Part shown: positions 886 to 15,674 of the stretch, piece by piece
Layout of the letters: every line of letters starts with the position of its first letter
How positions within the stretch are numbered: the first letter of the stretch is position 1
DNA from: Rubellicoccus peritrichatus
Lineage (GTDB): Bacteria; Verrucomicrobiota; Verrucomicrobiia; Opitutales; Cerasicoccaceae
DNA length: 64,000 nucleotides
Assembly: GCF_033100135.1 (NCBI RefSeq)
Contig: NZ_CP136920.1
Location: 3,777,001 to 3,841,000, forward strand
Direction: 5' to 3'
Translations under genes and position numbers: made by a program
The notes under the pieces: model-generated
What the model saw: the letters and a program-made list of their open reading frames with translations, nothing else
What the model was told of the DNA's origin: nothing
The model's database searches: none

Positions 886-2187
886 ATGTCATTTATTAAT
901 TGGAAACCATCCAGCACATTAACCGACTCTGACCGTTCGCCAGTTACCGTTGTCAGCGGTTTTTTAGGCGCAGGAAAAACGACTCTGCTAAACCACATCT
1001 TGTCTTATTCGGGGTCCCGGCGGTTAGCAGTCGTTGTTAACGACTTGGGCGAGGTCAACATTGATGCCTCGTTGATACGCAACAAGCTAGTCGAGATTGA
1101 TGGCCCAATTGATGGATTACTGGAGCTCCAAGGAGGCTGTATTTGTTGCTCTATTCAGGACGATTTGTTGGATGCACTACTGGAACTTTGGGAGAACTTT
1201 TGCCCGGAGCACATCTTAGTCGAGGCGACTGGTGTTGCTGAGCCCAAGTCGATACTCGAAACCTTATATGCGACTAATTTCAATGGCTGTCGTGGGACAG
1301 ATTTTCTGCGCATCGCAAATATGGTTACCGTTTTAGATGGCGGCAATTTGGAACAGTATTTTGAGTCTTCCGAAAATACTGGTCAGGAGCGCCGAACACG
1401 CATGCTTCATGTTGATCGTCGCCAACCGTTGCAAGAACTCTTAATGGAGCAGATCGAATGCGCCGACCTTTTGGTGATTAATAAAGTTGACTGCATTAGT
1501 GAGGCGGATCGCGAACGGTTTACCGCTTATTTAAACACACTTAATCCCGATGCTGAATTGTTGGGATGTACGATGGGGCAAGTAGATGTTCCACGGTTGA
1601 TGCAGGATTTTCGTTTTGATGAAGAAAAAACGTTGAGTAGTGCAGGTTGGCACCAAGCAATACTTTCCAATGACGATGGGCGTGAGACCGGATGGAAACA
1701 TGTCCATGGTGGGCATGCGAAGGGCAACAGCGATGGATGTGATCATGTGCATCATCACGATATGGTCGATGACGATTCTCATGAGCACCATCACCACGAT
1801 GGTCATGGGCACCACCATAAGGACTACGGTCTTGAAACTTTCATTTTCAATGCTCGGCGTCCTTTTAATGAATCGAAGCTACTAAAAGTGCTTCGCAATC
1901 GCTTGCCTGGTGTGCTTCGAGCTAAAGGCTTTTACTGGACCGATGCGAATCCGGAAAGGGTCGGGGTTCTGTCAATAGCCGGTAAAATGCTCCGAGCAGA
2001 CTATCTATCCGAATGGTGGCACGCGAAGGTTCAGCGCGGACAAGCAACTCTGGAAGATATGCCAGAATTAGTTAGGCGGTCTTGGTTGCCAGTCACGGGT
2101 GATCGGCGACAGGAATTAGTCTTTATTGGAATTGATCTTGATCGTGAATTAATTACCAAAGAGCTCGTCGCATGTTTTGCTGACTGA
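886..2187 (+). CDS. COG0523/CobW-family GTPase with His-rich loop (putative zinc metallochaperone)
   Basis: This is a G3E-family P-loop GTPase of COG0523, proteins that use GTP to deliver a metal, often zinc under starvation, to client enzymes. Walker A G-F-L-G-A-G-K-T is at residues 25-32, the metal-binding C-I-C-C motif at 85-88 and an NKVD guanine-specificity motif near 200. Between the GTPase and the CobW C-terminal domain is a His-rich loop (about residues 271-315, bases 1700-1830) with clusters such as HHHH and HGHGHHH, typical of metal-loading COG0523 members. An upstream TTG (826) would add a hydrophobic stretch unlike the family, so I chose the ATG at 886. The gene converges on the dodecin-like gene with a 17-base gap. 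Neighbouring ZIP, second CobW and Fur-family genes support zinc, though cobalt or iron cannot be excluded from sequence. Confidence 0.88.
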   Translation: MSFINWKPSSTLTDSDRSPVTVVSGFLGAGKTTLLNHILSYSGSRRLAVVVNDLGEVNIDASLIRNKLVEIDGPIDGLLELQGGCICCSIQDDLLDALLELWENFCPEHILVEATGVAEPKSILETLYATNFNGCRGTDFLRIANMVTVLDGGNLEQYFESSENTGQERRTRMLHVDRRQPLQELLMEQIECADLLVINKVDCISEADRERFTAYLNTLNPDAELLGCTMGQVDVPRLMQDFRFDEEKTLSSAGWHQAILSNDDGRETGWKHVHGGHAKGNSDGCDHVHHHDMVDDDSHEHHHHDGHGHHHKDYGLETFIFNARRPFNESKLLKVLRNRLPGVLRAKGFYWTDANPERVGVLSIAGKMLRADYLSEWWHAKVQRGQATLEDMPELVRRSWLPVTGDRRQELVFIGIDLDRELITKELVACFAD

Positions 2188-2204: not shown

Positions 2205-2480
2205 CTAGTGGTCATCATCACCATGATCATGAACGGCAGTCACGTCGATTGTCGCACTAAAATGAGTGACGACGCAGGATTTGTCATTTTTATCATGATG
2301 CAAGTATCCGCCAAGTTTCACTACTTCAAATGACTGAAAGGTTAGGTTGGGGTGATGATTATGGCCATGGCTAGGACAAGCAAGCTGCTGTAATGCGCTG
2401 TTCACCGCGTCATCAAAGCTTTTGTGTGATTGTCCAATGACTCGTAAAATGTCGCTGTGTTCAAGGTGGTGTTGGCTCAT
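2205..2480 (-). CDS. Histidine-rich dodecin-like small protein
   Basis: This 91-residue protein resembles dodecin, a small flavin-binding or storage protein that forms hollow dodecamers. The match is a strand (I-L-R-V-I-G), then S-H-K-S-F-D-D-A-V-N-S-A-L-Q-Q-L as the single helix, then two long strands around S-F-E-V-V-K-L-G-G and V-V-T-H-F-S-A-T-I-D-V. Ordinary dodecins are about 70 residues. This one adds His at the N-terminus (QHHLEH), a HGHNHH insertion after the helix, and a C-terminal HDHGDDDH tail. No signal peptide is seen, so it should be cytoplasmic. Lying inside a zinc cluster, it could be a metal-binding or metal-storing dodecin variant; that function is inference. The fold call rests on pattern matching by eye and needs a profile search. 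Confidence 0.6.
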   Translation of the reverse strand: MSQHHLEHSDILRVIGQSHKSFDDAVNSALQQLACPSHGHNHHPNLTFQSFEVVKLGGYLHHDKNDKSCVVTHFSATIDVTAVHDHGDDDH

Positions 2481-2695: not shown

Positions 2696-3484
2696 TTAAA
2701 GCCAAATCGCTACGATAGCCATGAGAGCAAACCCTGTTATTGAAGCAAGGAATTTGAGTTTGCGGCATTTCGGACGTAAGAATTCTTCACTGAAGATATC
2801 CAAGGTGGCGATGTATAGGAAGGTGCCTGCTGCTATCCCATAAAATATGCCTTCCATGACTCCATGTCGAGCAGAGGCTATGAAGTCGTCAATAAGAATG
2901 CCAGCAACAATCCCTAGTGGCGTAGACAGTGAAAACAACAAAACGTATATAAGGAGTTGCGAAAAGTTGGCTACGCTTCGAAGAAAACTGATCCCTAAAG
3001 CAAAAGCCGCTACCGCTTTATGAGCTAAGAGTGCAATGAGAATGATAACCACACCGGCAACAGTTGTTTCGACTCCTAAGGCGAATCCTGCTAAGAAGGA
3101 ATGAACTGAAAGCATGAAAAGTAACAGATAAGCCGAAATTGCAGTGGTTTGTCTGGTGGAATTGGGCAATAATTGAACCTCGTCAAAATCGTGAGGAACA
3201 AGAATCCGCTCTAATAGTAAAAATAGCATGAAGGCGCATCCAGTAAGCAGGTAAACGACAGGGTAGGATATCGCTGATGCATGCTCCGAAAAAAATTCTG
3301 TGGCGGAGCTCATCATATGGATCAATCCGATTCCTAGAAAAACCCCTCCTGCAAACGAGTTGCCCAGAGAGAACCAGAAATCGAAGCGATCATTCCTTTT
3401 CAGGCACCACGGCAGTAACCCTCCGGTGGGGCCGGATGCAAAAATCAATAAAATCGCCAGCCATTTCAATTGATCAATGGTCAT
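2696..3484 (-). CDS. ZIP-family metal transporter
   Basis: The 262-residue protein is an inner-membrane transporter of the ZIP family, which brings Zn2+ and related divalent ions into the cytoplasm. About eight hydrophobic helices can be drawn. The family signatures are present: G-N-S-F-A-G-G-V-F-L-G-I-G-L-I-H-M in the second helix, S-V-H-S-F-L-A-G-F-A-L-G in the fourth and A-H-K-A-V-A-A-F-A-L-G in the fifth, which together carry the His and polar residues of the binuclear metal site. The long loop between helices 3 and 4 has no His-rich stretch, so it resembles the eukaryote-like or ZIP I types more than ZupT. It is divergent from the oxidoreductase gene at 3629, and the palindrome at 3603-3617 lies in their shared upstream region. 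Zinc is the likeliest substrate. Confidence 0.85.
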   Translation of the reverse strand: MTIDQLKWLAILLIFASGPTGGLLPWCLKRNDRFDFWFSLGNSFAGGVFLGIGLIHMMSSATEFFSEHASAISYPVVYLLTGCAFMLFLLLERILVPHDFDEVQLLPNSTRQTTAISAYLLLFMLSVHSFLAGFALGVETTVAGVVIILIALLAHKAVAAFALGISFLRSVANFSQLLIYVLLFSLSTPLGIVAGILIDDFIASARHGVMEGIFYGIAAGTFLYIATLDIFSEEFLRPKCRKLKFLASITGFALMAIVAIWL

Positions 3485-3593: not shown

Positions 3594-3622
3594 TTGACTA
3601 AATGAAAGTAACTTTCACTAAT
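3594..3622 (+). promoter_or_regulatory. Promoter with embedded Zur-type operator; predicts a leaderless transcript
   Basis: TTGACT (3594-3599) and ACTAAT (3617-3622) are separated by 17 bases, a good sigma70 spacing. Transcription would then start about at base 3629, which is exactly the A of the ATG chosen for the oxidoreductase gene, implying a leaderless mRNA. The operator palindrome fills the spacer between the two hexamers, a standard position for a repressor. Confidence 0.55.
3603..3617. promoter_or_regulatory. Candidate Zur box (perfect 15-base palindrome)
   Basis: TGAAAGT-A-ACTTTCA is a perfect inverted repeat. The same GAAAGT-N-ACTTTC core recurs just upstream of the Fur-family gene at 8321. 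It lies in the region between the divergent ZIP and oxidoreductase genes. I infer that it is the binding site of the Fur-family repressor of this cluster. Confidence 0.65.
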
Positions 3623-3628
3623 TGTCGA

Positions 3629-4774
3629 ATGGATTTTGAGGCAATTATCGTCGGTGCGGGACCAGCTGGTATTGGCTGTTGCCTGGCATTGAGACGAGCT
3701 GGAGTTGAGAAAGTGCTGTTACTTGAGGCGGAGGAAGTTGGAGCTTCATTCCGTCGTTGGCCCGAAGAAATGCGGTTGATCACACCATCCTTCCATGGAA
3801 ACCCGTTCTTCCAGACAGATTTAAATGCGATTACCCCCGACACCAGCCCAGCCGATTTCTTTCAGAAAGAGCATCTCAGCGGAAATGAGTATGCCAATTA
3901 CCTTGCAGCTGTCGCCCAGCATTTTGAGCTGAGATTGCATGAAAACGAAAGAGTCTTGCAGATTCAACCTGAGCCTGGCGGTTATTCCATCGAAACCGAG
4001 CAGGCGACCTATCGTACGTCGGTAGTTATCTGGGCGGGCGGAGAATTTTCGCATCCGAAAACTGGTTCTTTCCCGGGAGCGGAGCATTGCGCGCATTCGA
4101 GTGTATTTCGTACTTGGGCTGATTTTAAAGGCGATGAAGCCTTAATTATTGGAGGCTACGAAAGTGGAATTGATGCCGCTTGCCATCTGGTTCAATTAGG
4201 CAAGCGAGTCGTCGTCATTTCGACCGGAGAGCCTTGGAACGTTGATAATCCAGATCCCAGCGAAGTGCTGAGTCCCTACACTCGTGAGCGTTTGAAAACG
4301 ACCATGCAGAATAATCCCAAACGACTTCTATTGCTGGGTAACTCAACAGTAGCCCGGGTGGGTTGCCTCTCCAAGCGCTATATCGTCGAAACCGAAGACG
4401 GCAAAATCCTCAACACCAATCACCGTCCGATTGCAGCGATTGGCTTTCATTCTGCACTCGCACCGATCAAGGAGCTTTGGGCTTGGGAGGGCTCAAAGCC
4501 TCAATTCACCGAAGAGGATGAGTCGACGCTATACCCTGGCATCTACTACACAGGGCCATCGCTAGTACAACGAAACTCTAAGTTTTGTTTCATCTACAAA
4601 TTTCGATCACGGTTTGGTGTAGTCGCACGATCCGTTGCCAGACGGCTTGGCTATCCTGAACCAGATTTGGAGGACGATCGTCGCCGAGGCTTTCTTGTCG
4701 ATGATCTGGAGTGCTGCACGAACTGTGAATGTGCTGTGGAATCAGAGGCTGAATCGGTTGCACCTCAGTCATGA
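3629..4774 (+). CDS. FAD/NAD(P)-dependent oxidoreductase of the zinc cluster
   Basis: This is a flavoprotein of the pyridine nucleotide-disulfide oxidoreductase/CzcO-like group. The N-terminus has a Rossmann FAD motif G-A-G-P-A-G-I-G preceded by a hydrophobic strand, and a second dinucleotide motif (I-I-G-G-Y-E-S-G-I-D-A) lies near residue 175. The last 20 residues contain C-C-T-N-C-E-C, a possible metal or disulfide site that such enzymes usually lack. An ATG at 3602 would place the start inside the operator, so I chose the second ATG (3629), which begins directly with the FAD strand and fits a leaderless transcript. The stop overlaps the FeoB-like gene (ATGA), so the two are translationally coupled. 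It may supply redox chemistry for metal uptake or for a metal-linked thiol; the substrate is unknown. Confidence 0.8.
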   Translation: MDFEAIIVGAGPAGIGCCLALRRAGVEKVLLLEAEEVGASFRRWPEEMRLITPSFHGNPFFQTDLNAITPDTSPADFFQKEHLSGNEYANYLAAVAQHFELRLHENERVLQIQPEPGGYSIETEQATYRTSVVIWAGGEFSHPKTGSFPGAEHCAHSSVFRTWADFKGDEALIIGGYESGIDAACHLVQLGKRVVVISTGEPWNVDNPDPSEVLSPYTRERLKTTMQNNPKRLLLLGNSTVARVGCLSKRYIVETEDGKILNTNHRPIAAIGFHSALAPIKELWAWEGSKPQFTEEDESTLYPGIYYTGPSLVQRNSKFCFIYKFRSRFGVVARSVARRLGYPEPDLEDDRRRGFLVDDLECCTNCECAVESEAESVAPQS

Positions 4775-6486
4775 AAACCGAGCGAACCGCTGTAGATGCC
4801 CGGGCCTCATTGACGGCCAGTCGACCTTTAGTTGTTGTGCTTGGTCTGGAGAGTGTAGGCAAGAGTAGTCTTTTGTCGGCATTGAGTGGACGCTTTGCAG
4901 AGCCATCGGCTTTGTCAGGCTCTACACTGCATTGCGAGCGCTACCCCGACTCATCATGGGATTGGGTTGATACACCGGGGATTATAACAGGATCTGACGC
5001 TGTGACTGTGCGTGATGCTCTGGATGCGATGGAGTCTGCAGAGTCAATTTTAATTGTGTTGCGAGCTCATCGCGCAAGTGAAGAGCTCGCATCTTTGTTG
5101 CCCATGCTTGGCTCAAGGAAAGTAGCGATAGTGCTAACCTTCCAGGATCAGCTGAAGTCGATGGACAAAAATGCACGACAGGAACTGCTAACCATTTGGA
5201 AAGAGAATACGGGTGTATCGATAGCTTTGTTAGACAGTCGTGCACCGGATGCAACGGAACTCGCCACTGTACGCACTGCAGTAATGGAGGCGAGTCCGCT
5301 AAAGTCGTTTAAACTAGGCGAGCTTCCTGCCTTTCCTAAAAAAGGCTCTAGTTCGTCATGGGCTCGTAAGTTGGAGCAAACGCTTGGCTTTGCGCCGCTG
5401 AGTTTGCTTTTATTGTTTGGTCCTGCATGGGTAGCGGTTACTCAAGCAAACGCTTTGGCGGATAAATTCTATGATTCCGTCCGAACTTTTCAGGCCCCGC
5501 TGCTTAGCTGGCTTAATCAATTGCCCGCGCCACTTGCAGCAACACTGGGAGGGGACTACGGGGTGGTCGCTATGTTTCCTTTTCTCCTTCTCTACGCGTT
5601 GCCCACCATCTTGATTTTTACCGGATTACTTGCAATCTACAAGAGCACCGGATTGATCGATCGCCTTTCCTACAGTCTGCATCCATGGCTGAGGCCCTTT
5701 GGGCTAGGTGGTCGAGATCTCGTGCGTGTGGTAATGGGATTTGGCTGTAATGTGCCTGCTGTCGTTGCAACCCGATCTTGTTCCAGCTGCTCACGAGGTG
5801 CCTGCGTGTCGGCTATCTCATTTGGTTCCGCTTGCTCTTACCAGCTTCCAGCGACTTTGGCAGTTTTTGCGGCAACAGGTTTTGTTTGGCTAGGGCCCAT
5901 CTACCTTGTCGTTTTGGCTTTGACCACACTGTTATATTTGCGAGCGACAACACCGCTTGCGCTCAGGCAGGCTCAAAACAAACAACTGCTACCAGCATTG
6001 GGCAACTTACGACCGCCGGACTGGGGAGCAGTTCTTCGAGAGACTATTCAAAGTCTCCGAGATTTCGTGATTATGGCGCTGCCTATATTCATTGTCATCT
6101 GTTTTGCTGCGGGTCTGCTTCAGTGGTCTGGCGCACTGGCTTGGTTGACGCACTTCCTGACACCTGTGATGGCTGCGTTCCATCTGCCCCCTGAAGCCGC
6201 GCTCGCAGTGGTGCTCGGTTCGGTGCGTAAAGATGGTCTCGCCATCGGTCTACTCAATGGCGATTGGGATTCTTCCAAGGTCCCCTTTGACACACCGGCC
6301 CAAGTACTTACTGCAGTCTATCTGGCTGGAGTCCTGTTGCCTTGCCTGGTCACTGTTGTTTCGGTCGCAAAGGAAATGCGAGCTGGCTTCGCACTCAAGA
6401 TGGTCATTCGACAAGCTTGTTTTGCTGCACTATTTTCACTCTGTATCGCTTGGTTTGGAGCGCTGCTTGTTTCTTTCGTAAGCTAA
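4771..6486 (+). CDS. FeoB-like GTPase/membrane transporter, variant with degenerate G4 motif
   Basis: The protein has a small N-terminal GTPase-like domain and a polytopic membrane domain homologous to FeoB, the ferrous iron importer. G1 is G-L-E-S-V-G-K-S (residues 25-32) and G3 is D-T-P-G (67-70), but the G4 site expected as N-x-x-D reads T-F-Q-D (123-126), so guanine specificity may be altered. In the membrane part both Gate signatures are present: G-F-G-C-N-V-P-A at about 323-330 and S-A-C-S-Y-Q-L-P at about 353-360, and extra cysteines (C-S-S-C) lie between them. At 571 residues it is shorter than classical FeoB (about 770). It overlaps the FAD oxidoreductase gene by four bases and is followed by a CobW gene, so a role in zinc or another divalent metal under Zur control is more likely than plain iron uptake. 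That is inference. Confidence 0.82.
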
Positions 6487-6506: not shown

Positions 6507-7745
6507 ATGCAAAATACCAAAAGAAAACTTCCCGTAACCGTCTTGTCTGGATTTCTAGGTGCTGGAAAAACCACCGTTCTCAATCATGTTTTGAATAACC
6601 GTGAGGGCCTTAAGGTCGCTGTAATCGTCAACGATATGAGCGAGGTCAATATCGACGCTCAGCTTGTTGCTGAGGGAGGCGCGGAATTAAGTCGGAAGGA
6701 AGAAAAACTCGTTGAAATGAGCAATGGTTGCATCTGCTGCACTCTGCGGGACGACTTGCTTGAAGAAGTGCGCCGCTTGGCGTTTGAAGGGCGCTTCGAT
6801 TACTTGCTGATCGAATCTACGGGTGTTTCTGAACCAATGCCCGTGGCGGAGACATTTTTCTTTCGCAATGAAATGGGCTTCTGTCTGGATGACATTGCTC
6901 GACTCGACACAATGGTTACCGTTGTCGATGCAGCCAATTTTGAACGCGATTTTGGTTCTCCAGAGAAGTTGCGTGATCGTGGTCAGGAAGTCGATCCAGA
7001 GGATGAACGAACGATCGTTGATCTTTTGGTCGATCAAATCGAGTTTGCTGATGTGATTCTGCTCAACAAAATCGACACTGTTGACGACGAGGTACGTGCA
7101 CGAATTATTTCAGGCATCAAAGCGATCAACAGCCAAGCTGAGCTGATCGAATCCAACTTTGGAAACGTGGAGTCTCGAGCCATCCTCAATACCGGGCGCT
7201 TCGATATTGAATCGGCTGAACAGACTCCTGACTGGTTGAAGTTGATTAATAATGAGCCGGTTTCCGAAACCGAGGAATATGGTATCAGCCACTTTGTTTA
7301 CCGTGCACGATGCCCTTTCCACCCAGAGCGGCTACTGAAATGGATGGCTCAGGACTGGCCAGGTGTGATTCGTTCGAAAGGCTTTTTCTGGCTCGCGACT
7401 CGCATGCCATACGTTGGGCTGTGGTCGAGAGCCGGGGCTCAGTCCGATGTGCGTTTGGCAGGTAAATGGTTTGCCACAGTTCCACGTGAAAACTGGCCCG
7501 ATGATAAAGACGAAATTGAGTTAGTGTTATCCAATTGGAAGGAACCTTATGGTGATCGTCGACAAGAGATTGTGTTGATTGGATATTCCAAGGAAATGGA
7601 TGAGTCATTCCTTCATGCCTGCTTTGAAGCTTGTTTGCTGACAGATGCCGAGATGGAAGGTGGTGAAGCTTTTTGGGATACTTTAGCAGACCGATTTCCA
7701 TCCTGGTCTGTTGACGCCTCACCTGCTGCTGTGGAATTGGATTAA
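6507..7745 (+). CDS. COG0523/CobW-family GTPase without His loop (ZigA/YciC-like)
   Basis: This is a second G3E GTPase of the CobW/COG0523 family. Walker A G-F-L-G-A-G-K-T is at residues 15-22, C-I-C-C at 75-78 and an NKID motif near residue 190. The C-terminal CobW domain includes the H-P-E-R-L motif and a closing G-D-R-R-Q-E-I-V strand. Unlike the paralogue at 886 it has no His-rich loop. Its acidic C-terminus and overall organisation recall the zinc-regulated ZigA/YciC subgroup. An upstream in-frame start would read through the FeoB-like gene, so the ATG at 6507 is chosen. The 20-base spacing after the FeoB-like stop implies one operon with the FAD oxidoreductase, under the operator at 3603-3617. 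The likely role is a cytoplasmic zinc chaperone during zinc limitation. Confidence 0.87.
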
Positions 7746-7874: not shown

Positions 7875-8321
7875 TTAATTATCGGATGCGGAGCCTGGCT
7901 GACAATCTTCGCAAATTCCATAAACCTCCATCATGTGCGTAACTTCGGTGAATCCGAGTTTTTGCGCCTGAGCTTCCAACTCCTGAGCCAGACAAAAATC
8001 AAGACGTTCCGTTCGATGGCATTCACGGCACATAAAGTGATGGTGATGATCATCAGGTTCAGTTAGCTCAAATAGGTAGCCACTGTCTTCGAGTGGAATT
8101 CGCTGAATAATTCCAATTCCCTCAAAGGCTTCCAGTGTGCGATAGACGGTCACCAGATCACTTTCGGGGAGATCTGCTTTGTCTCTCAATTCTGCAGCAG
8201 AGACCGGACGATCAATTGCCACCAAAGCACCAAGTAGCCGTTCCCGTTTGCGAGTCATACGCAACGGTCCTTTTTCAATAGATTTCAGAATGCGCTGAAG
8301 AAATCCCTTATCGTGCTTCAT
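7875..8321 (-). CDS. zur: Fur-family metalloregulator, probably Zur
   Basis: This is a 148-residue Fur-superfamily repressor. A winged-helix DNA-binding domain occupies about residues 20-85 (V-T-V-Y-R-T-L-E-A-F as recognition helix), followed by the dimerisation domain with D-D-H-H-H-H-F-M-C (90-98) and the structural zinc site C98-x2-C101 and C137-x2-C140. Which metal it senses cannot be read directly, but the neighbouring ZIP, COG0523 and His-rich genes and the absence of heme or siderophore genes favour zinc. The gene converges with the operon ending at 7745. A GAAAGT-N-ACTTTC box lies five bases before its own ATG, suggesting autoregulation. Confidence 0.8.
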   Translation of the reverse strand: MKHDKGFLQRILKSIEKGPLRMTRKRERLLGALVAIDRPVSAAELRDKADLPESDLVTVYRTLEAFEGIGIIQRIPLEDSGYLFELTEPDDHHHHFMCRECHRTERLDFCLAQELEAQAQKLGFTEVTHMMEVYGICEDCQPGSASDN

Positions 8322-8326
8322 CTTTG

Positions 8327-8341
8327 TGAAAGTGACTTTCG
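8327..8341. promoter_or_regulatory. Candidate Zur box at the repressor gene
   Basis: TGAAAGT-G-ACTTTCG is an inverted repeat with the same GAAAGT-N-ACTTTC core as the site at 3603-3617. It ends five bases from the start codon of the Fur-family gene, which suggests autorepression. A possible -10 element (TACTAT on the minus strand) lies next to it. Confidence 0.6.
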
Positions 8342-8694: not shown

Positions 8695-11600
8695 CTATAG
8701 CTCCTCGAAGGCGATTCTCATGAAGTGATAGTCTGAGCCGCTGCCATATGCATTGGACTGGACGAAGGCATAGGTTGATGAGCCATCTCCATGGCTTATT
8801 GTCACAGACTTCACATAGTGAGTACCTTCAGTGAGATCGGTCCATGTTATCATGTTATTGCTACCTTGAACGGTCACGCGGATGTTTGAGGGAAGGTTGT
8901 CATTCATCCTCATATTCAGCGTCATGTGATTGCTTCCATTGATGGTCATTGATGGTATCAATCCGGCGGCATCTCCTATGCTTGGATTATAACCATTGGC
9001 AAACTCAATGATATTCGGAGTGCCGTCTCCATCTGGATCGGCATCTGGGTTGAGGTCGTTGCCAGTTAAGCCAAAAGCATTATTCCGAATCCAGCTATCA
9101 AATGAACTGTCATCTGCGACCACCGAATTACTATAGCTATTCATTTGGAGCGCTGTGTTGCCATCGTTATTCATGGTCAGCAAAGCATTACTATCATTAT
9201 TCATGGAAATTAATGTGCGGCCATTGGCATCGATGGTGAAATCGATTACGTGAACTTGCGCACCGATGGTGACAGTCAAGGAGTTTCCATTTATACTAGT
9301 TACCGGCATAGGGTCTCCATCGTTGTGAGGGTAGATTAGTGTTTTGAAGTCCGGAGCAACGACATTGGATCGATTAAGCGAAAGCTTCTGATACTCATTG
9401 TTGCTACCGAAGTGATTGCCCAATGTCCATGCGCTGGCTGAACCTTTGGCTTCCAAAGCGCGAAGGAACAGCCTTGGGCCACCAGCTCCGTCCTGACTAT
9501 GCTTCAACAAGGCATCTGTATTATTTGGAGATCCAACAAACTGCACCGTTGAGTCCATTGGCGCCTGCCAGGTGTATGTATTATTGCCGCCGTCCTTCTC
9601 AATGTCGTCAATGATCAGAACATAAGGATATTCGCCTTTCATGAGAATCGCGGATCTGAATGCCTTGTTGACAGGGTTGGCAACACCAAGTGTTCCTACA
9701 TCACCGCCCAAGTCGGCAACAACGTCGCTACTCATGAATGGGGCACCATTCTCAGCAAAGTTGTAGATGAACTGATCCCAGGTATAGCCTGAGTTGGATA
9801 CACGCAGTTCTCCAGATGGCTCTGACTGCTTGTAGCGGCGATAGTGATCGTAGGCAAACTTCGCGTCACCGGCACCTAAGACATAATGCTCGTTATCAAC
9901 GAATTCCAAGAACACACCAGGGCTACTCGGCCAGTATTCCGTATTCGTTCTTACGCTGTGGTTTTGGGCGTAGCCATTGATGAGAATGGTCGCATGTTCG
10001 GTGCCATAGGGGTGATACTTGAATGGATCAAGAACCCACCTCCGCTGGTGCGAGAACATGGAGAAGCCATTACGGTCACAGTGATTGTGACCAAGATACC
10101 ACAAATCACCGCGGCACTCGAAATCAAGTCGTGTCGCATCCAGACTCCAATCCGAACGGGCATTGACCAGCCCACGCATTTCCGTAAAGAGTGCCAGTGG
10201 CATGTCGGTGTCAGCCGCTGCTTCTTCGGGATAAATCGGTGCACCCTCAATCGGGTCCGTACCGAACATGGCTACAAAGAGCCAACGCTTGCTCGGGTTT
10301 TCATACTGGTTCCAATTGCGGTAAAACCAATCCCACGCTTTATCCGTATGGTAGAGGAATTTTAGCAGAGGTTGTGTATTCGCGTAAGCCCATCCGTAAC
10401 CACCATTAATAGGGTCCACAATATCGTGATGGCCATGCACTTCAACTCCCCATGGTGCCAACGTGTAGAAAGCGCCATGCATGTATTTATACATGTTGGA
10501 ATCATCTGGATCGAGGAGGTTCTCGCCACGGATCTGAGCAGCCAAGATAGAGGGTAAGCCCCAATACATCCCAAATCCGACATAACCGATAGACTCGTGT
10601 CCAATACCAGTGTCGTAGATCCCCCATCGACGGGTATAGTTCTCAAGCTTGGTAATGTTGACGTCATACATGTTGTCGTTGTTACCGGCTTCACCTTCGA
10701 TGGCTAAAGCACACATAATGATGTGGTCGTGGTGTGTGCGCCAGTTGGTGCTCTGATCTTGTGGCAGATAACTCCAGCCGTAAGCATTACGACCGGTGAT
10801 CATTTTGCTGAGCATATTACGCACCTTGTCGCGTTCTGAATTTGTCATCCAGTTATAGGCGAAATCGTAGGCAAAGGCCAAGTCCGCATTTGCATCGTGA
10901 TTGAGGTTACCAGCACCGTTACGTTGCTGATAGAAAGTAGCATGCTGTTGTGCCGCTGTGGCAAGGGCAGTAGCGATCCTACTTTGTTCTGCTGGATCGT
11001 CGTCTTCAATCATCTCGATGAAAGCAGCGGCCAATATTGGTCCATACAACTCGAAATCACCACGAGTGTATTGATGAACACCAGGATTGCTGCCACTCTT
11101 ACCGGTCCAGTTACTACCGTTCCAGTAAGTGATGTAAGGCCGGACATCGACTGCATTGCCCAGTTTTAACTGATTGTAAGGAGCATCACCATTGTAATAG
11201 GCTTGCGCATTATTTTTCAGATTGTTGTAGGCATTTTGTGCAATAATCGATGAGGCAAGGCGCTCACGCATTACTGGGATTTCTGCCGGACCAAAGAGAA
11301 TACGTGGATGTTGCCCAACAGGTGGAGGAGGCGAAAGCACACGAATTCCGATATCGAACGTATCAGTCTTATCACCATAGGTTCCGGTGACAGTCAGCAC
11401 ATAGGCACCAACACGATTTACCGTGACCGTTGGGTTGGCCGAGGTGGTGGAGGAGAAGTTAACCGTCGAACCAGTTGCCTTGGATTTGACACTCCAGCTA
11501 TAGCTTGGCGATACCGATTGGCCTTCTTTCGTGCCGGACACACTGAGCGCAACGGAAACACTGGATCCGGTAAGCGTCTTGATGTGGTGCTTCTTGCCCT

Positions 11601-14600
11601 TGACGAGCAGATCATCTGGGGCTGGGGGAGGAGGAGGCGCAGGAGGAGGAGGCGCCGTTAAGACGGCTTCGGTCAGCTCATCAGCCGTTTTACCGAAAAC
11701 CGACTCAGATCCAACTGAGTAAACGATACCGAAAATCTCCAGTTCGTCTCCGTAATCCAGACCTGGAGTTCCATTATCCTTAATACGTAAACCGATCGCG
11801 TAATCGTTGAATACTAGGTTATTATTATTCTGATCAAACGTGTCATCACGACCATACCATACAATCGTATCGACAGGATTTTTGTAAGCAGTACCACTGA
11901 CGAAATGTACATCCGTGTCCGGATTGTTTTTGTTCAAGACCTGAGAGCCGGTGAAGCCGACGTCTGCCGTCGATGTCGTGTAACTGGTCGCACCAGCATT
12001 CATGCGCCTTACAGATCCATAAAAACGCAACAACAGGCGGTCAAAAAAACCATTGTCATCCGCAATGTCTAACAACTCTAGTCGGTTGTCGTAACCAGTT
12101 GCCGCATAGACAATCGGGTTGGTAAATTCGACGGCTCCTCCATGTTCATAGAGACTTCCATCCAAATGCAGTGAGATCAAATCTGGATAAGTTGGTTCTA
12201 CCGGATCAGTAGGATCTGTCGGATCAGTAGGATCGGTTGGGTCCGTAGGGTCCGTTGGATCGGTTGGATCCGTGGGAGGATCGGTTGGACCTATGGCAGC
12301 AATAGCAGTCAGCTCATCAGCGGTTTTACCAAAGACGGAAGCTGTGCCAGTGGTATAGACAATGCCTACGATCTCAAGCTCATCACCGTAATCCAGGCCA
12401 GCTGCTCCGTTGTCAGTAATGCGAATGCCGATTGCATAGTCATTGAACACAAGGTCATTGCTGTTTTGATCGAAGGTGTCGTCACGACCATACCAGACGA
12501 CTGTTCCAGTAGGATTTAGGTAAGTTGTGCCGCTAACCCAGTTGACCTGTGTATCAGCGTTGTCTTTGTTCAGAGCTTCAGAGCCGGTAAAGCCAACGTC
12601 AGCCGTCGATGTTGTGTAACTGGTCGCACCAGCATTCATACGCTTCTGGGCTTCAAAAAAGCGCAGAAGAGTGCGGTCAAAAAAGCCACTTCCATCGGTA
12701 GGGTCCGTTATCTCTAAGCGGTTGTCATAACCAGTCGCGGCATAGACGATTGGGTTGGTGAACTTGACCGTTCCGCCAACTTCGTAGAGATACTCATCCA
12801 GATCGAGGGAGTAAAAACCTGGTTCTGCGGGATCAGTCGGGTCCGTCGGGTCTGTGGGATCGGTAGGATCGGTAGGATCAGTTGGGTCTGTAGGATCGGT
12901 GGGGTTCGTTGGGTCGGTGGGAGGAGCCACACCGATAGCAGCGGTCAGTTCGTCAGCTGTTTTGCCAAAGACAGACTCTGATCCAATTGAATAAACAATA
13001 CCTACGATCTCTAATTCATCTCCGTAATCTAGGCCAGGAGCTCCGTTGTCTGTAATGCGAATACCGATTGCATAATCATTGAAAACAAGATCATTGTTGT
13101 GAGGCTCAAATGTGTCATCACGACCATACCAGACGATGGTATCTACTGGGTTTTTATAAGTCGTGCCACTAACGAAATAAACGTCTCCGTCCGGGTTGTC
13201 TTTATTTAAGACCTCTGAGCCAACGAAACCAACATCGGATGTGGATGATGTGTAGCTGGTTGCCCCTGCATTCATGCGTTTTTGCGCTTCGTAGAAGCGG
13301 AATAATAAACGGTCAAAGCGCCCTGCTTGATCAACAGGGTCTTGTAGCACTAATCGATTATCATAGCCAGTAGCGGCATAAACGACGGGGTTCGTAAAAG
13401 GAGTGGTCTCATCGACCTCATAAATGTGTGTGCTTAGATCCAATGCAACCAACTCTGTATTCGCTGGAGGGTCGGTTGGATCCGTTGGGTCGGTCGGATC
13501 AGTTGGGTTCGTTGTGCCAGCGCCAACGATTGCTGTAAGGTCATCAGCGGTAAGACCGAATACAGATTCGGATCCAGTGGAATAAACAATGCCTACGATC
13601 TCAAGCTCATCGCCGTAATCCAGTCCAGTTACTCCATTGTCAGTAATGCGAATGCCGATTGCATAGTCATTGAACACAAGGTCATTGCTGTTTTGATCAA
13701 AGGTGTCATCACGACCATACCAGACGATTGTATCAACTGGGTTTAAATAAGTTGTACCGCTCACCCAGTTAACCTGAGTATCGGCGTTGTCTTTGTTCAG
13801 AACTTCAGAGCCGGTAAAGCCAACATCAGCCGTGGATGTCGTGTAGCTTGTCGCACCAGCATTCATGCGCTTCTGAGCTTCAAAAAAGCGCAGAAGGGTG
13901 CGGTCAAAAAAGCCACTTCCATCGGTAGGGTCCGTTATCTCCAAGCGGTTATCATAACCAGTAGCAGCATAAACGATTGGGTTCGTAAACTTAACCGTTC
14001 CACCAACTTCATAGAGATACTCATCCAGATCGAGAGAGTAAAAATCTGGATAGCTGGGAGGATCCGTGGGGTCTGTAGGATCAGTAGGATTGGTGGGGTC
14101 CGTTGGGTCCGTTGGCGGAGCTGCACCGATAGCGGCGGTCAGTTCGTCAGCTGTTTTGCCAAAGACAGACTCTGATCCAATCGAATAAACAATTCCAACG
14201 ATCTCAAGCTCATCGCCATAATCTAGGCCAGGAGCTCCGTTGTCTGTAATGCGAATACCGATTGCATAATCATTAAATACGAGGTCACTGTTGTGAGGCT
14301 CAAATGTATCGTCACGACCATACCAGGCGATTGTATCTACTGGGTTTTTATAAGTCGTACCACTAACGAAATAAACGTCTCCGTCCGGGGTATCTTTATT
14401 TAAGACCTCAGAGCCAACGAAACCAACATCGGATGTGGATGATGTGTAGCTTGTTGCCCCTGCATTCATGCGTTTTTGTGCTTCGTAAAAGCGGAATAAC
14501 AAACGGTCAAAGCGCCCTGTTTGATCGACAGGGTCTTGTAACACTAATCGATTATCATAGCCAGTAGCGGCATAAACAACGGGGTTCGTAAAAGGAGTGG

Positions 14601-15312
14601 TCTCATCGACCTCATAAATGTGCGTGCTTAGATCCAATGCAACCAGTTCTGTATTCGCTGGAGGGTTGGTCGGCTCCGTCGGGTCTGTTGGATTGCCACC
14701 GGAATTAACAATGGCGGTCAATTGATCGGCGGTTTGCCCAAATACAGAATCTGATCCAGTAGAATAAACAATACCAACAATCTCAAGCTCGTCCCCATAA
14801 TCGAGGTCAGGTGCTCCATTATCTGTAAAACGTACGCCGATCGCATAATCATTGAATACAAGGTCATTGTTATGAGCATCAAACGAACCGTCACGGCCGT
14901 ACCATATAATCGTATCAACAGGATTTTTATAGGTCGTGCCACTGACCCAATGGACATCTCCGTCTGGAGTATTGTTATTGAGCACCTCTGTTCCAACAAA
15001 TCCAACGTCAATTGTTGATGTCGTGTAACTGGTTGCGCCAGAATTCAAACGCTTCTGAGCTTCATAAAATCGGAATAACATACGGTCAAAGCGCCCATCT
15101 CCATCCGTAGGATCCTGTAATTCCAAACGATTGTCGTAACCAGTGGTAGCATAAATCACGGGGTTCGTGAATTTGACAACACCTCCATTTTCATAGAGAT
15201 GCTCGTTCAGATCCAACGAGATCAAATCAGCACTCAGAGGAGATACGAAAAATGACCAGATAAGCAGGATGAACGAGGTTCTTATGTTCTTTAAGGTAGG
15301 GGTCTGGGGCAT
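8695..15312 (-). CDS. Giant secreted heparinase II/III-like protein with six N-terminal repeats
   Basis: This is an approximately 2200-residue exported protein. The chosen ATG (15312) gives a signal peptide (T-L-K-N-I-R-T-S-F then a hydrophobic core ending V-S-P-L-S-A); an upstream in-frame start only adds an unlikely extension. Order: six tandem ~175-residue units joined by Thr-Asp-Pro-rich linkers, a proline linker, an Ig/PKD-like domain, and a heparinase II/III-like (alpha/alpha) plus beta-sandwich region beginning H-P-R-I-L-F, with conserved D-L-A-F-A-Y-D-F-A-Y and L-G-H-N-H-C-D-R-N. The C-terminal part has the D-P-D-G-D-G-T-P-N calcium-loop segment common in secreted Verrucomicrobia proteins, then a beta domain. 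It probably cleaves a uronic-acid polysaccharide outside the cell, with the repeats as binding or spacer modules. Substrate unknown; the lyase family call is good. Confidence 0.8.
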   Translation of the reverse strand: MPQTPTLKNIRTSFILLIWSFFVSPLSADLISLDLNEHLYENGGVVKFTNPVIYATTGYDNRLELQDPTDGDGRFDRMLFRFYEAQKRLNSGATSYTTSTIDVGFVGTEVLNNNTPDGDVHWVSGTTYKNPVDTIIWYGRDGSFDAHNNDLVFNDYAIGVRFTDNGAPDLDYGDELEIVGIVYSTGSDSVFGQTADQLTAIVNSGGNPTDPTEPTNPPANTELVALDLSTHIYEVDETTPFTNPVVYAATGYDNRLVLQDPVDQTGRFDRLLFRFYEAQKRMNAGATSYTSSTSDVGFVGSEVLNKDTPDGDVYFVSGTTYKNPVDTIAWYGRDDTFEPHNSDLVFNDYAIGIRITDNGAPGLDYGDELEIVGIVYSIGSESVFGKTADELTAAIGAAPPTDPTDPTNPTDPTDPTDPPSYPDFYSLDLDEYLYEVGGTVKFTNPIVYAATGYDNRLEITDPTDGSGFFDRTLLRFFEAQKRMNAGATSYTTSTADVGFTGSEVLNKDNADTQVNWVSGTTYLNPVDTIVWYGRDDTFDQNSNDLVFNDYAIGIRITDNGVTGLDYGDELEIVGIVYSTGSESVFGLTADDLTAIVGAGTTNPTDPTDPTDPTDPPANTELVALDLSTHIYEVDETTPFTNPVVYAATGYDNRLVLQDPVDQAGRFDRLLFRFYEAQKRMNAGATSYTSSTSDVGFVGSEVLNKDNPDGDVYFVSGTTYKNPVDTIVWYGRDDTFEPHNNDLVFNDYAIGIRITDNGAPGLDYGDELEIVGIVYSIGSESVFGKTADELTAAIGVAPPTDPTNPTDPTDPTDPTDPTDPTDPTDPTDPAEPGFYSLDLDEYLYEVGGTVKFTNPIVYAATGYDNRLEITDPTDGSGFFDRTLLRFFEAQKRMNAGATSYTTSTADVGFTGSEALNKDNADTQVNWVSGTTYLNPTGTVVWYGRDDTFDQNSNDLVFNDYAIGIRITDNGAAGLDYGDELEIVGIVYTTGTASVFGKTADELTAIAAIGPTDPPTDPTDPTDPTDPTDPTDPTDPTDPVEPTYPDLISLHLDGSLYEHGGAVEFTNPIVYAATGYDNRLELLDIADDNGFFDRLLLRFYGSVRRMNAGATSYTTSTADVGFTGSQVLNKNNPDTDVHFVSGTAYKNPVDTIVWYGRDDTFDQNNNNLVFNDYAIGLRIKDNGTPGLDYGDELEIFGIVYSVGSESVFGKTADELTEAVLTAPPPPAPPPPPAPDDLLVKGKKHHIKTLTGSSVSVALSVSGTKEGQSVSPSYSWSVKSKATGSTVNFSSTTSANPTVTVNRVGAYVLTVTGTYGDKTDTFDIGIRVLSPPPPVGQHPRILFGPAEIPVMRERLASSIIAQNAYNNLKNNAQAYYNGDAPYNQLKLGNAVDVRPYITYWNGSNWTGKSGSNPGVHQYTRGDFELYGPILAAAFIEMIEDDDPAEQSRIATALATAAQQHATFYQQRNGAGNLNHDANADLAFAYDFAYNWMTNSERDKVRNMLSKMITGRNAYGWSYLPQDQSTNWRTHHDHIIMCALAIEGEAGNNDNMYDVNITKLENYTRRWGIYDTGIGHESIGYVGFGMYWGLPSILAAQIRGENLLDPDDSNMYKYMHGAFYTLAPWGVEVHGHHDIVDPINGGYGWAYANTQPLLKFLYHTDKAWDWFYRNWNQYENPSKRWLFVAMFGTDPIEGAPIYPEEAAADTDMPLALFTEMRGLVNARSDWSLDATRLDFECRGDLWYLGHNHCDRNGFSMFSHQRRWVLDPFKYHPYGTEHATILINGYAQNHSVRTNTEYWPSSPGVFLEFVDNEHYVLGAGDAKFAYDHYRRYKQSEPSGELRVSNSGYTWDQFIYNFAENGAPFMSSDVVADLGGDVGTLGVANPVNKAFRSAILMKGEYPYVLIIDDIEKDGGNNTYTWQAPMDSTVQFVGSPNNTDALLKHSQDGAGGPRLFLRALEAKGSASAWTLGNHFGSNNEYQKLSLNRSNVVAPDFKTLIYPHNDGDPMPVTSINGNSLTVTIGAQVHVIDFTIDANGRTLISMNNDSNALLTMNNDGNTALQMNSYSNSVVADDSSFDSWIRNNAFGLTGNDLNPDADPDGDGTPNIIEFANGYNPSIGDAAGLIPSMTINGSNHMTLNMRMNDNLPSNIRVTVQGSNNMITWTDLTEGTHYVKSVTISHGDGSSTYAFVQSNAYGSGSDYHFMRIAFEEL
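11657..15228 (-). repeat. Six tandem ~530-base repeats encoding an unrecognised domain
   Basis: Units, in protein order: 14706-15228, 14122-14652, 13517-14052, 12926-13458, 12290-12819 and 11657-12183. Each codes for a ~175-residue domain with conserved Y-D-N-R-L, F-D-R, E-A-Q-K-R, G-A-T-S-Y-T, S-G-T-T-Y, W-Y-G-R-D, V-F-N-D-Y-A-I-G and L-D-Y-G-D-E-L-E-I-V-G-I-V-Y. Units 2 and 4 are nearly identical, as are 3 and 5, which indicates duplication of a two-unit block. Degenerate Pro-Thr-Asp linkers of different length separate them (for example 12820-12925 and 12184-12289). Confidence 0.92.
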
Positions 15313-15674
15313 TATATAAAGCATGCGATAGATGCATGTATAATGAAATGGTATAGTCAAAGCTCTAGCAGCCAATAAACTTAATTGCGTGTTCTTTTAC
15401 TAAATTTTTACGAATCCAGCGCATAATAGACCCCCCTATACTGACTAAAAATATCATTGCTGCTTGGGTGAGTTCCTTTTCGGGATGTCCACAAAGAAAT
15501 ACATTGAAGCAGTTTGCGTAGTGAGACGACGCTCCTAATCAAAAGTTTCGATCTAGAGACGGGCTTGTTTTTTTTCGCACACTAAAGCAACGTCGATGTC
15601 GTAAACAGTAGAGGTGTCTGCGTGCACCGGTTTCTTCACCAACCATGCCAATAACGTTGCATGCACTGTTTCAC
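15313..15674. other. Intergenic region upstream of the giant gene
   Basis: I see no gene. The left part should carry the promoter of the gene starting at 15312; no strong -35/-10 pair was recognised. No terminator-like hairpin was found after the gene ending at 15675. Confidence 0.45.

Follow-up and report, generated by a model that had tools for sequence, protein, structure and literature searches.

A flavoprotein and a FeoB-like membrane protein, encoded by overlapping genes among zinc-type neighbours, as a probable metal importer for zinc starvation

We analysed a 64,000-nucleotide stretch of the Rubellicoccus peritrichatus chromosome (hereafter the window) in which the gene for a flavoprotein (OX) is followed directly by the gene for a FeoB-like membrane protein (FBL; Table 1). 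The two genes overlap by the ATGA at 4771-4774, in agreement with an earlier note made from the sequence alone, and translational coupling is therefore probable. The gene that follows FBL matches the ZigA model NF038288 over its full length with 597.8 bits (cut-off 600). The zinc-type surroundings described in the earlier note are likewise borne out, with a ZIP transporter, two COG0523 proteins and a Fur-family regulator. An in-frame ATG at 3602 lies within the operator, and automatic annotation is likely to start OX there; alignment backs the start at 3629. Beyond the cluster, the minus strand at 8695-15375 encodes a protein of 2226 residues in which DPTDPT linkers join several near-identical repeats.

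Table 1. Features of the OX-FBL locus, in positions of the window.
Feature	Positions	Strand	Description
Second COG0523 protein	886-2187	+	with His-rich stretch
Small His-rich protein	2205-2480	-	adjoins the zinc genes; marginal dodecin match (PF07311, 23.0 bits, cut-off 22.5)
ZIP-family metal transporter	2696-3484	-	divergent from OX; PF02535, 149 bits
Promoter-like element	3594-3622	+	TTGACT (3594-3599), 17-base spacer, ACTAAT (3617-3622); read from sequence
Operator TGAAAGTAACTTTCA	3603-3617	.	perfect 7-1-7 inverted repeat, in the spacer between the two promoter-like hexamers
OX	3629-4774	+	two-dinucleotide-fold FAD/NAD(P)H flavoprotein (Pyr_redox_3), 381 aa; Pfam PF13738, E 5.6e-99
Codons of the CCTNCEC tail of OX	4712-4732	+	tail conserved across Bacteria and Archaea
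FBL	4771-6486	+	FeoB-like membrane protein, 571 aa; small G domain and two Gate domains
FBL G domain (residues 18-176)	4822-5298	+	P-loop GLESVGKS, G3 DTPG, G4 variant TFQD (5137-5148)
FBL gate-1 cysteines	5737-5790	+	GFGC (C326) and clade-specific C337-x-x-C340 (5779-5790)
COG0523/ZigA-type G3E GTPase	6507-7745	+	third gene of the probable operon
Fur-family regulator, probable Zur	7875-8321	-	PF01475, 70.5 bits
Second operator TGAAAGTGACTTTCG	8327-8341	.	upstream of the Fur-family regulator gene

The box upstream of OX was not equalled in any of 2000 shuffles of the preceding 160 bp. Its 13-mer core GAAAGTGACTTTC recurs at 8328-8340 and occurs exactly four times in the 5.8 Mb genome; the two copies outside the cluster are intragenic, one in a gene whose sequence resembles PEP carboxylase and one in a gene whose sequence resembles glutamine synthetase. 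Allowing up to two mismatches gives 52 sites genome-wide against 28 in a reversed control, a count not resolved into genes. Among relatives of the same order, a perfect box precedes OX at two loci (L018, L019) and a box with one mismatch at two others (L020, L022), in all four cases with TTGACT immediately 5′ of it; none was found upstream of OX in L021. The box also precedes a Fur-family gene and a COG0523 gene in relatives. No box was seen in the window upstream of the second COG0523 gene, the homologue of which in L019 has one. The promoter-like ACTAAT is a weak -10 hexamer and is absent from the list of a consensus scan; a transcript starting from this element would be leaderless or nearly so. 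The operator may serve double duty for the divergent ZIP gene.

The earlier note had called this element a Zur box. The operator itself is perfect and recurs in relatives, as just described, but its presumed cognate regulator carries a threonine at the M-site position that is occupied by cysteine in the Zur proteins of Streptomyces coelicolor and Mycobacterium tuberculosis. These two Zur proteins are the regulator’s best PDB matches, in a score tie with a Fur, and the genome holds six further Fur-family genes. Because the regulator lacks the Zur-type cysteine, the name Zur is only probable in this genome. The box is new for this order, its tie to zinc running through the ZigA, Fur-family and COG0523 genes that share it and through the relatives. 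One genome of the order (G038) has the box in front of ZigA and a Fur-family gene but lacks OX-FBL, which therefore appears to be an accessory of the regulon. Absence of the pair from related zinc clusters, which the earlier note had offered as evidence against its proposal, thus applies to this genome, and other zinc clusters retain the pair.

The closest solved structure to OX is PDB 3D1C (E 9.5e-114), described as a flavin-containing putative monooxygenase. It is identical over the aligned length to the OX of Staphylococcus aureus and bears the same cysteine tail; the structure is uncharacterised, and its genomic partner FBL lies outside that record. The C-terminus of the window’s OX ends in LECCTNCECAVES, containing the C-C-T-N-C-E-C tail noted previously. 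Homologues from Archaea and Bacteria share the pattern CC-x2-4-C-x-C, with the exceptions of L026, which has no tail, and L037, which has only CxC. The tail is modelled as disordered (pLDDT <50, residues 358-381). OX has no CxxC of the thioredoxin reductase kind. Its nearest NCBIfam model is that of the bacillithiol disulfide reductase YpdA; assignment to YpdA was rejected on the score (92.6 bits against a cut-off of 339.9) and on the missing YpdA glycine-loop cysteine in the aligned OX.

FBL shares with FeoB (TIGR00437) two Gate domains (PF07670, E 1.2e-23), the conserved cysteines C326, C355 and C525, and an N-terminal G domain of NFeoB fold that aligns with Streptococcus thermophilus NFeoB at a VIA-align Z of 18.2 (157 residues, rmsd 2.4). 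The GFGCNVPA motif, retained as the earlier note had stated, occupies residues 323-330. In other respects the two proteins differ. FBL scores about 101-105 bits against TIGR00437, below the cut-off of 315.65, while a separate true FeoB in the same genome scores 529.6 bits. The G domain departs from NFeoB as well: Pfam FeoB_N gives 13.2 against a cut-off of 27, G4 reads TFxD in place of NxxD, and the helical S (GDI) domain is missing. In the FBL model (pLDDT 85.5), residues 176-208 form a stretch of ~30 residues with a single 10-residue helix, and the NFeoB alignments cover about 155-167 of about 250 residues. The TFQD at residues 123-126 had been read as a degenerate G4 site; the motif is there, but most of the family has TFxD and an invariant Asp126 is seen across 22 members, which makes “variant” the more exact word. 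Given the invariant aspartate, guanine specificity may persist.

The feature that most sharply separates the two families is a CxxC in gate 1, present in 32 of 32 aligned FBL members and in none of 60 ordinary FeoB proteins. A phylogeny had been suggested to see whether these proteins group by linkage to Zur boxes and to the same oxidoreductase. In a midpoint-rooted tree of 90 proteins the 31 FBL proteins fall in one OX-linked clade, separated from the rest by a branch of length 2.54 (SH-aLRT 100). Three FBL proteins lack a P-loop (L020:9204-10400, L021:9665-10891 and S. aureus L119:569-1918). The first two begin beyond the G domain. That of S. aureus keeps a remnant from about G4 onward, and there the OX stop and FBL start overlap, leaving no space for the lost domain. 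Because of these three proteins, GTPase coupling and nucleotide binding cannot be essential in all members. Matches of the AlphaFold FBL model in the PDB are filled by the G domain; the membrane core alone aligns with CNTnw over 301 residues (Z 15.9, rmsd 4.7). The concentrative nucleoside transporters (CNT) share this core with FBL, but transport another class of substrate and have no G domain. Current annotation calls FBL proteins either “nucleoside recognition domain-containing protein” or “ferrous iron transporter B”.

The common core, the GFGCNVPA motif and the NFeoB-fold G domain would all be expected if OX and FBL were simply an ordinary FeoB system for ferrous iron. The sub-cut-off score, the separate clade, the missing S domain, the true FeoB elsewhere in the genome and the Zur boxes in relatives together largely refute this explanation, which we consider very improbable, and we do not assign FBL to FeoB. 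FBL, with its conserved gate cysteines and transporter core, is a probable metal transporter.

We examined the distribution of FBL by scanning 84,980 species genomes with a profile; the taxa and loci below are those among the matches listed. FBL occurs in Verrucomicrobia, haloarchaea, Nitrosopumilus (the thaumarchaeon among the carriers), cyanobacteria, Chloroflexi, Bacilli and Gammaproteobacteria. Within the window’s order it is found in 6 of 54 genomes, accompanied there by an OX of 70-78% identity. Plasmid-borne copies occur in Klebsiella (about 500 records), Haloarcula, Halocatena, Acaryochloris and Paenibacillus. No FBL relative was found in viral contigs: two GenBank entries filed as Staphylococcus phage (L119, OR844989.1; L120, OR849880.1) were rejected as phage, being unannotated contigs with S. 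aureus chromosomal genes. One such contig has a pyrD-like gene, recognised by eye, and the gene order OX, FBL, COG0523. A haloarchaeal pair (L151:1489-4486) has both frames broken, by stops, frameshift or sequence error.

For comparison with FBL loci we used 59 ordinary FeoB loci from the same scan, again among the matches listed. OX adjoins FBL at 26 of 29 loci and FeoB at none of the 59 (Fisher p 2.5e-19), and COG0523 genes lie near FBL at 18 of 29 loci and near FeoB at none (p 1.4e-11), with the qualification that the OX and COG0523 queries were drawn partly from those very loci. Of the 29 FBL loci, 22 have one or more zinc markers, as against 1 of the 59 FeoB loci. The three FBL loci without OX are L025, L028 and L036; three further haloarchaeal FBL loci from a later, separate search, one of them interrupted by stops or a frameshift, all have both OX and the CxxC.

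Regulation of the pair by zinc limitation is very probable, because three independent lines of evidence converge on it: Zur boxes in Bacilli, zinc-sparing neighbours, and COG0523/ZigA genes. For the Bacillus group, the published Zur box is TAAATCGTAATNATTACGATTTA (PMC2706843). Its perfect core TCGTAATNATTACGA lies upstream of the S. aureus OX and of the operons in Paenibacillus cellulositrophicus and Cohnella, with no equal match in 2000 shuffles, and two other Bacilli operons have the core with one mismatch. In Bacillus paralicheniformis, OX has a weak box with three mismatches and the COG0523 gene a perfect one. Boxes 5′ of OX in cyanobacteria match the consensus TGATAATNATTATCA, which Fur uses as well, and they are not counted here; the gammaproteobacterial box pattern is likewise provisional.

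COG0523/ZigA is the commonest neighbour of the pair after its own partner gene, and the zinc-sparing neighbours of FBL comprise S14 variants, L33, FolE2 and DksA. Ribosomal protein S14 is expected to carry CxxC twice. The haloarchaeal S14 paralogues that adjoin the pair (L013, L014, L030, L031) have lost two of the four zinc cysteines (CRMT...CRQS), and in Paenibacillaceae the neighbour is a long S14 without a zinc ribbon. The haloarchaeal paralogue is in itself an instance of a zinc-sparing ribosomal protein in Archaea.

Parts of this arrangement have been reported elsewhere. In Corynebacterium glutamicum, Zur directly represses the putative oxidoreductase gene cg0795 and the divergent COG0523 gene cg0794, and cg0795 is derepressed when zinc is limiting (PMC2823685). 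We liken cg0795 to OX by description only, and the C. glutamicum Zur regulon, unlike the loci described here, has no reported FeoB-like partner (PMC2823685); a 2018 Zur review names cg0795 alone. Haas 2009 mentions a Zur-regulated cluster on the Klebsiella plasmid pLVPK, and its main text names neither the flavoprotein nor the FeoB-like gene (PMC2770081). On a plasmid related to pLVPK, the OX-FBL pair adjoins COG0523, FolE2, DksA and CysS. An OX homologue is present on NC_005249, which we take to be pLVPK itself.

These neighbours also bear on which metal is carried. FBL could import a substitute such as iron, manganese or cobalt during zinc starvation, to supply zinc-replacing enzymes (an iron-type gamma carbonic anhydrase, for example), with OX keeping the metal reduced. 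Paralogues of gamma-CA, FolE2 and DksA adjoin FBL in Klebsiella and Erwinia, Haas 2009 proposes that such paralogues use other metals (PMC2770081), FBL retains the cysteines of FeoB, and a reductase fits a redox metal better than it fits zinc. On the other hand, many FBL loci, including those of haloarchaea and Bacilli and that of the window, have no neighbours of this kind beyond zinc chaperones or ribosomal proteins free of zinc, and no iron or manganese enzyme; the extra CxxC fits Zn(II); and 7 of 14 FBL genomes own a full FeoB besides. We therefore find a substitute metal unlikely, and zinc is somewhat favoured as the cargo of FBL.

In two genomes the transporter has been exchanged. The OX of G035 and G045 (48-49% identity; L140:6678-8899, L141:1639-3833) overlaps an unrelated SBF/ACR3-like membrane protein, and in G045 a COG0523 gene comes next. 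As OX stays constant and the transporter is swapped, it is more likely that OX works together with a transporter than that the two are neighbours by chance. Plasmid relatives of the SBF-like partner (L145-L148) adjoin cation diffusion facilitators or cation transporters, ArsR/SmtB, CadA, CadD and ZIP genes. They are labelled “arsenic resistance” or “bile acid:sodium symporter”, names that may mistake them for carriers of arsenite or bile acids.

The cadmium and zinc efflux genes beside these relatives, together with YpdA as the nearest (sub-cut-off) model to OX, would suit a different role, in which OX and FBL protect or restore thiols, or carry metal or its thiol complexes out of the cell, and have no more than their regulation in common with the zinc genes. 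We judge this quite improbable: export of metal during zinc starvation would be unexpected, OX lacks both the thioredoxin reductase CxxC and the YpdA cysteine in the aligned glycine loop, and it is tightly coupled to a membrane transporter.

Overall, we propose that OX and FBL form a metal-import module turned on when zinc is scarce, a reading to which we assign a probability of roughly 0.55. In the proposed sequence of events, low zinc would release the repressor from its operator, so that OX, FBL and ZigA are produced. FBL would then bring in a divalent metal ion, most likely Zn(II), by way of C326, C355 and C525; these residues are common to FeoB and would bind Fe(II) too. On the CNT topology, a re-entrant hairpin would have the GFGC loop at its tip and the CxxC at its cytoplasmic end. 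By this analogy the CxxC would lie on the cytoplasmic side, within reach of the OX tail, and could receive the ion at the cytoplasmic mouth. The disordered tail would either keep the CxxC thiols reduced at the expense of NAD(P)H or take the ion itself; a direct action of OX on the thiols of FBL, or on the ion, is a tentative suggestion. COG0523 would see to subsequent delivery of the metal. As some FBL members have no G domain, this domain would be a gate rather than the power source of transport. We consider it doubtful, though worth stating, that FBL founds a zinc-importing branch of the FeoB superfamily in which a flavoprotein’s cysteine tail working on the CxxC makes import redox-assisted and possible without GTP. 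The central claim of the earlier note, metal import linked to zinc and not ordinary iron uptake, is supported by the FBL clade, by the linkage to OX and COG0523 and by the Zur boxes; transport and the identity of the metal are what we infer.

A search of open-access papers found no description of the OX-FBL pair, which is weak evidence of novelty. Taken together, OX and FBL probably constitute an undescribed metal importer for zinc starvation, found from archaea to S. aureus. Zinc usually enters prokaryotic cells through ABC importers and ZIP proteins. If our reading is true, OX-FBL would be a third type of zinc importer, linked to a flavoenzyme and common to Bacteria and Archaea, and would fill a gap in our picture of nutritional immunity and of marine trace-metal biology. 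The pair is inherited sporadically over two domains of life and sits on the S. aureus chromosome and on many Klebsiella plasmids. The orphan structure 3D1C would be explained, and FeoB-type channels would prove able to change their metal, offering a test of how far such channels need a GTPase.
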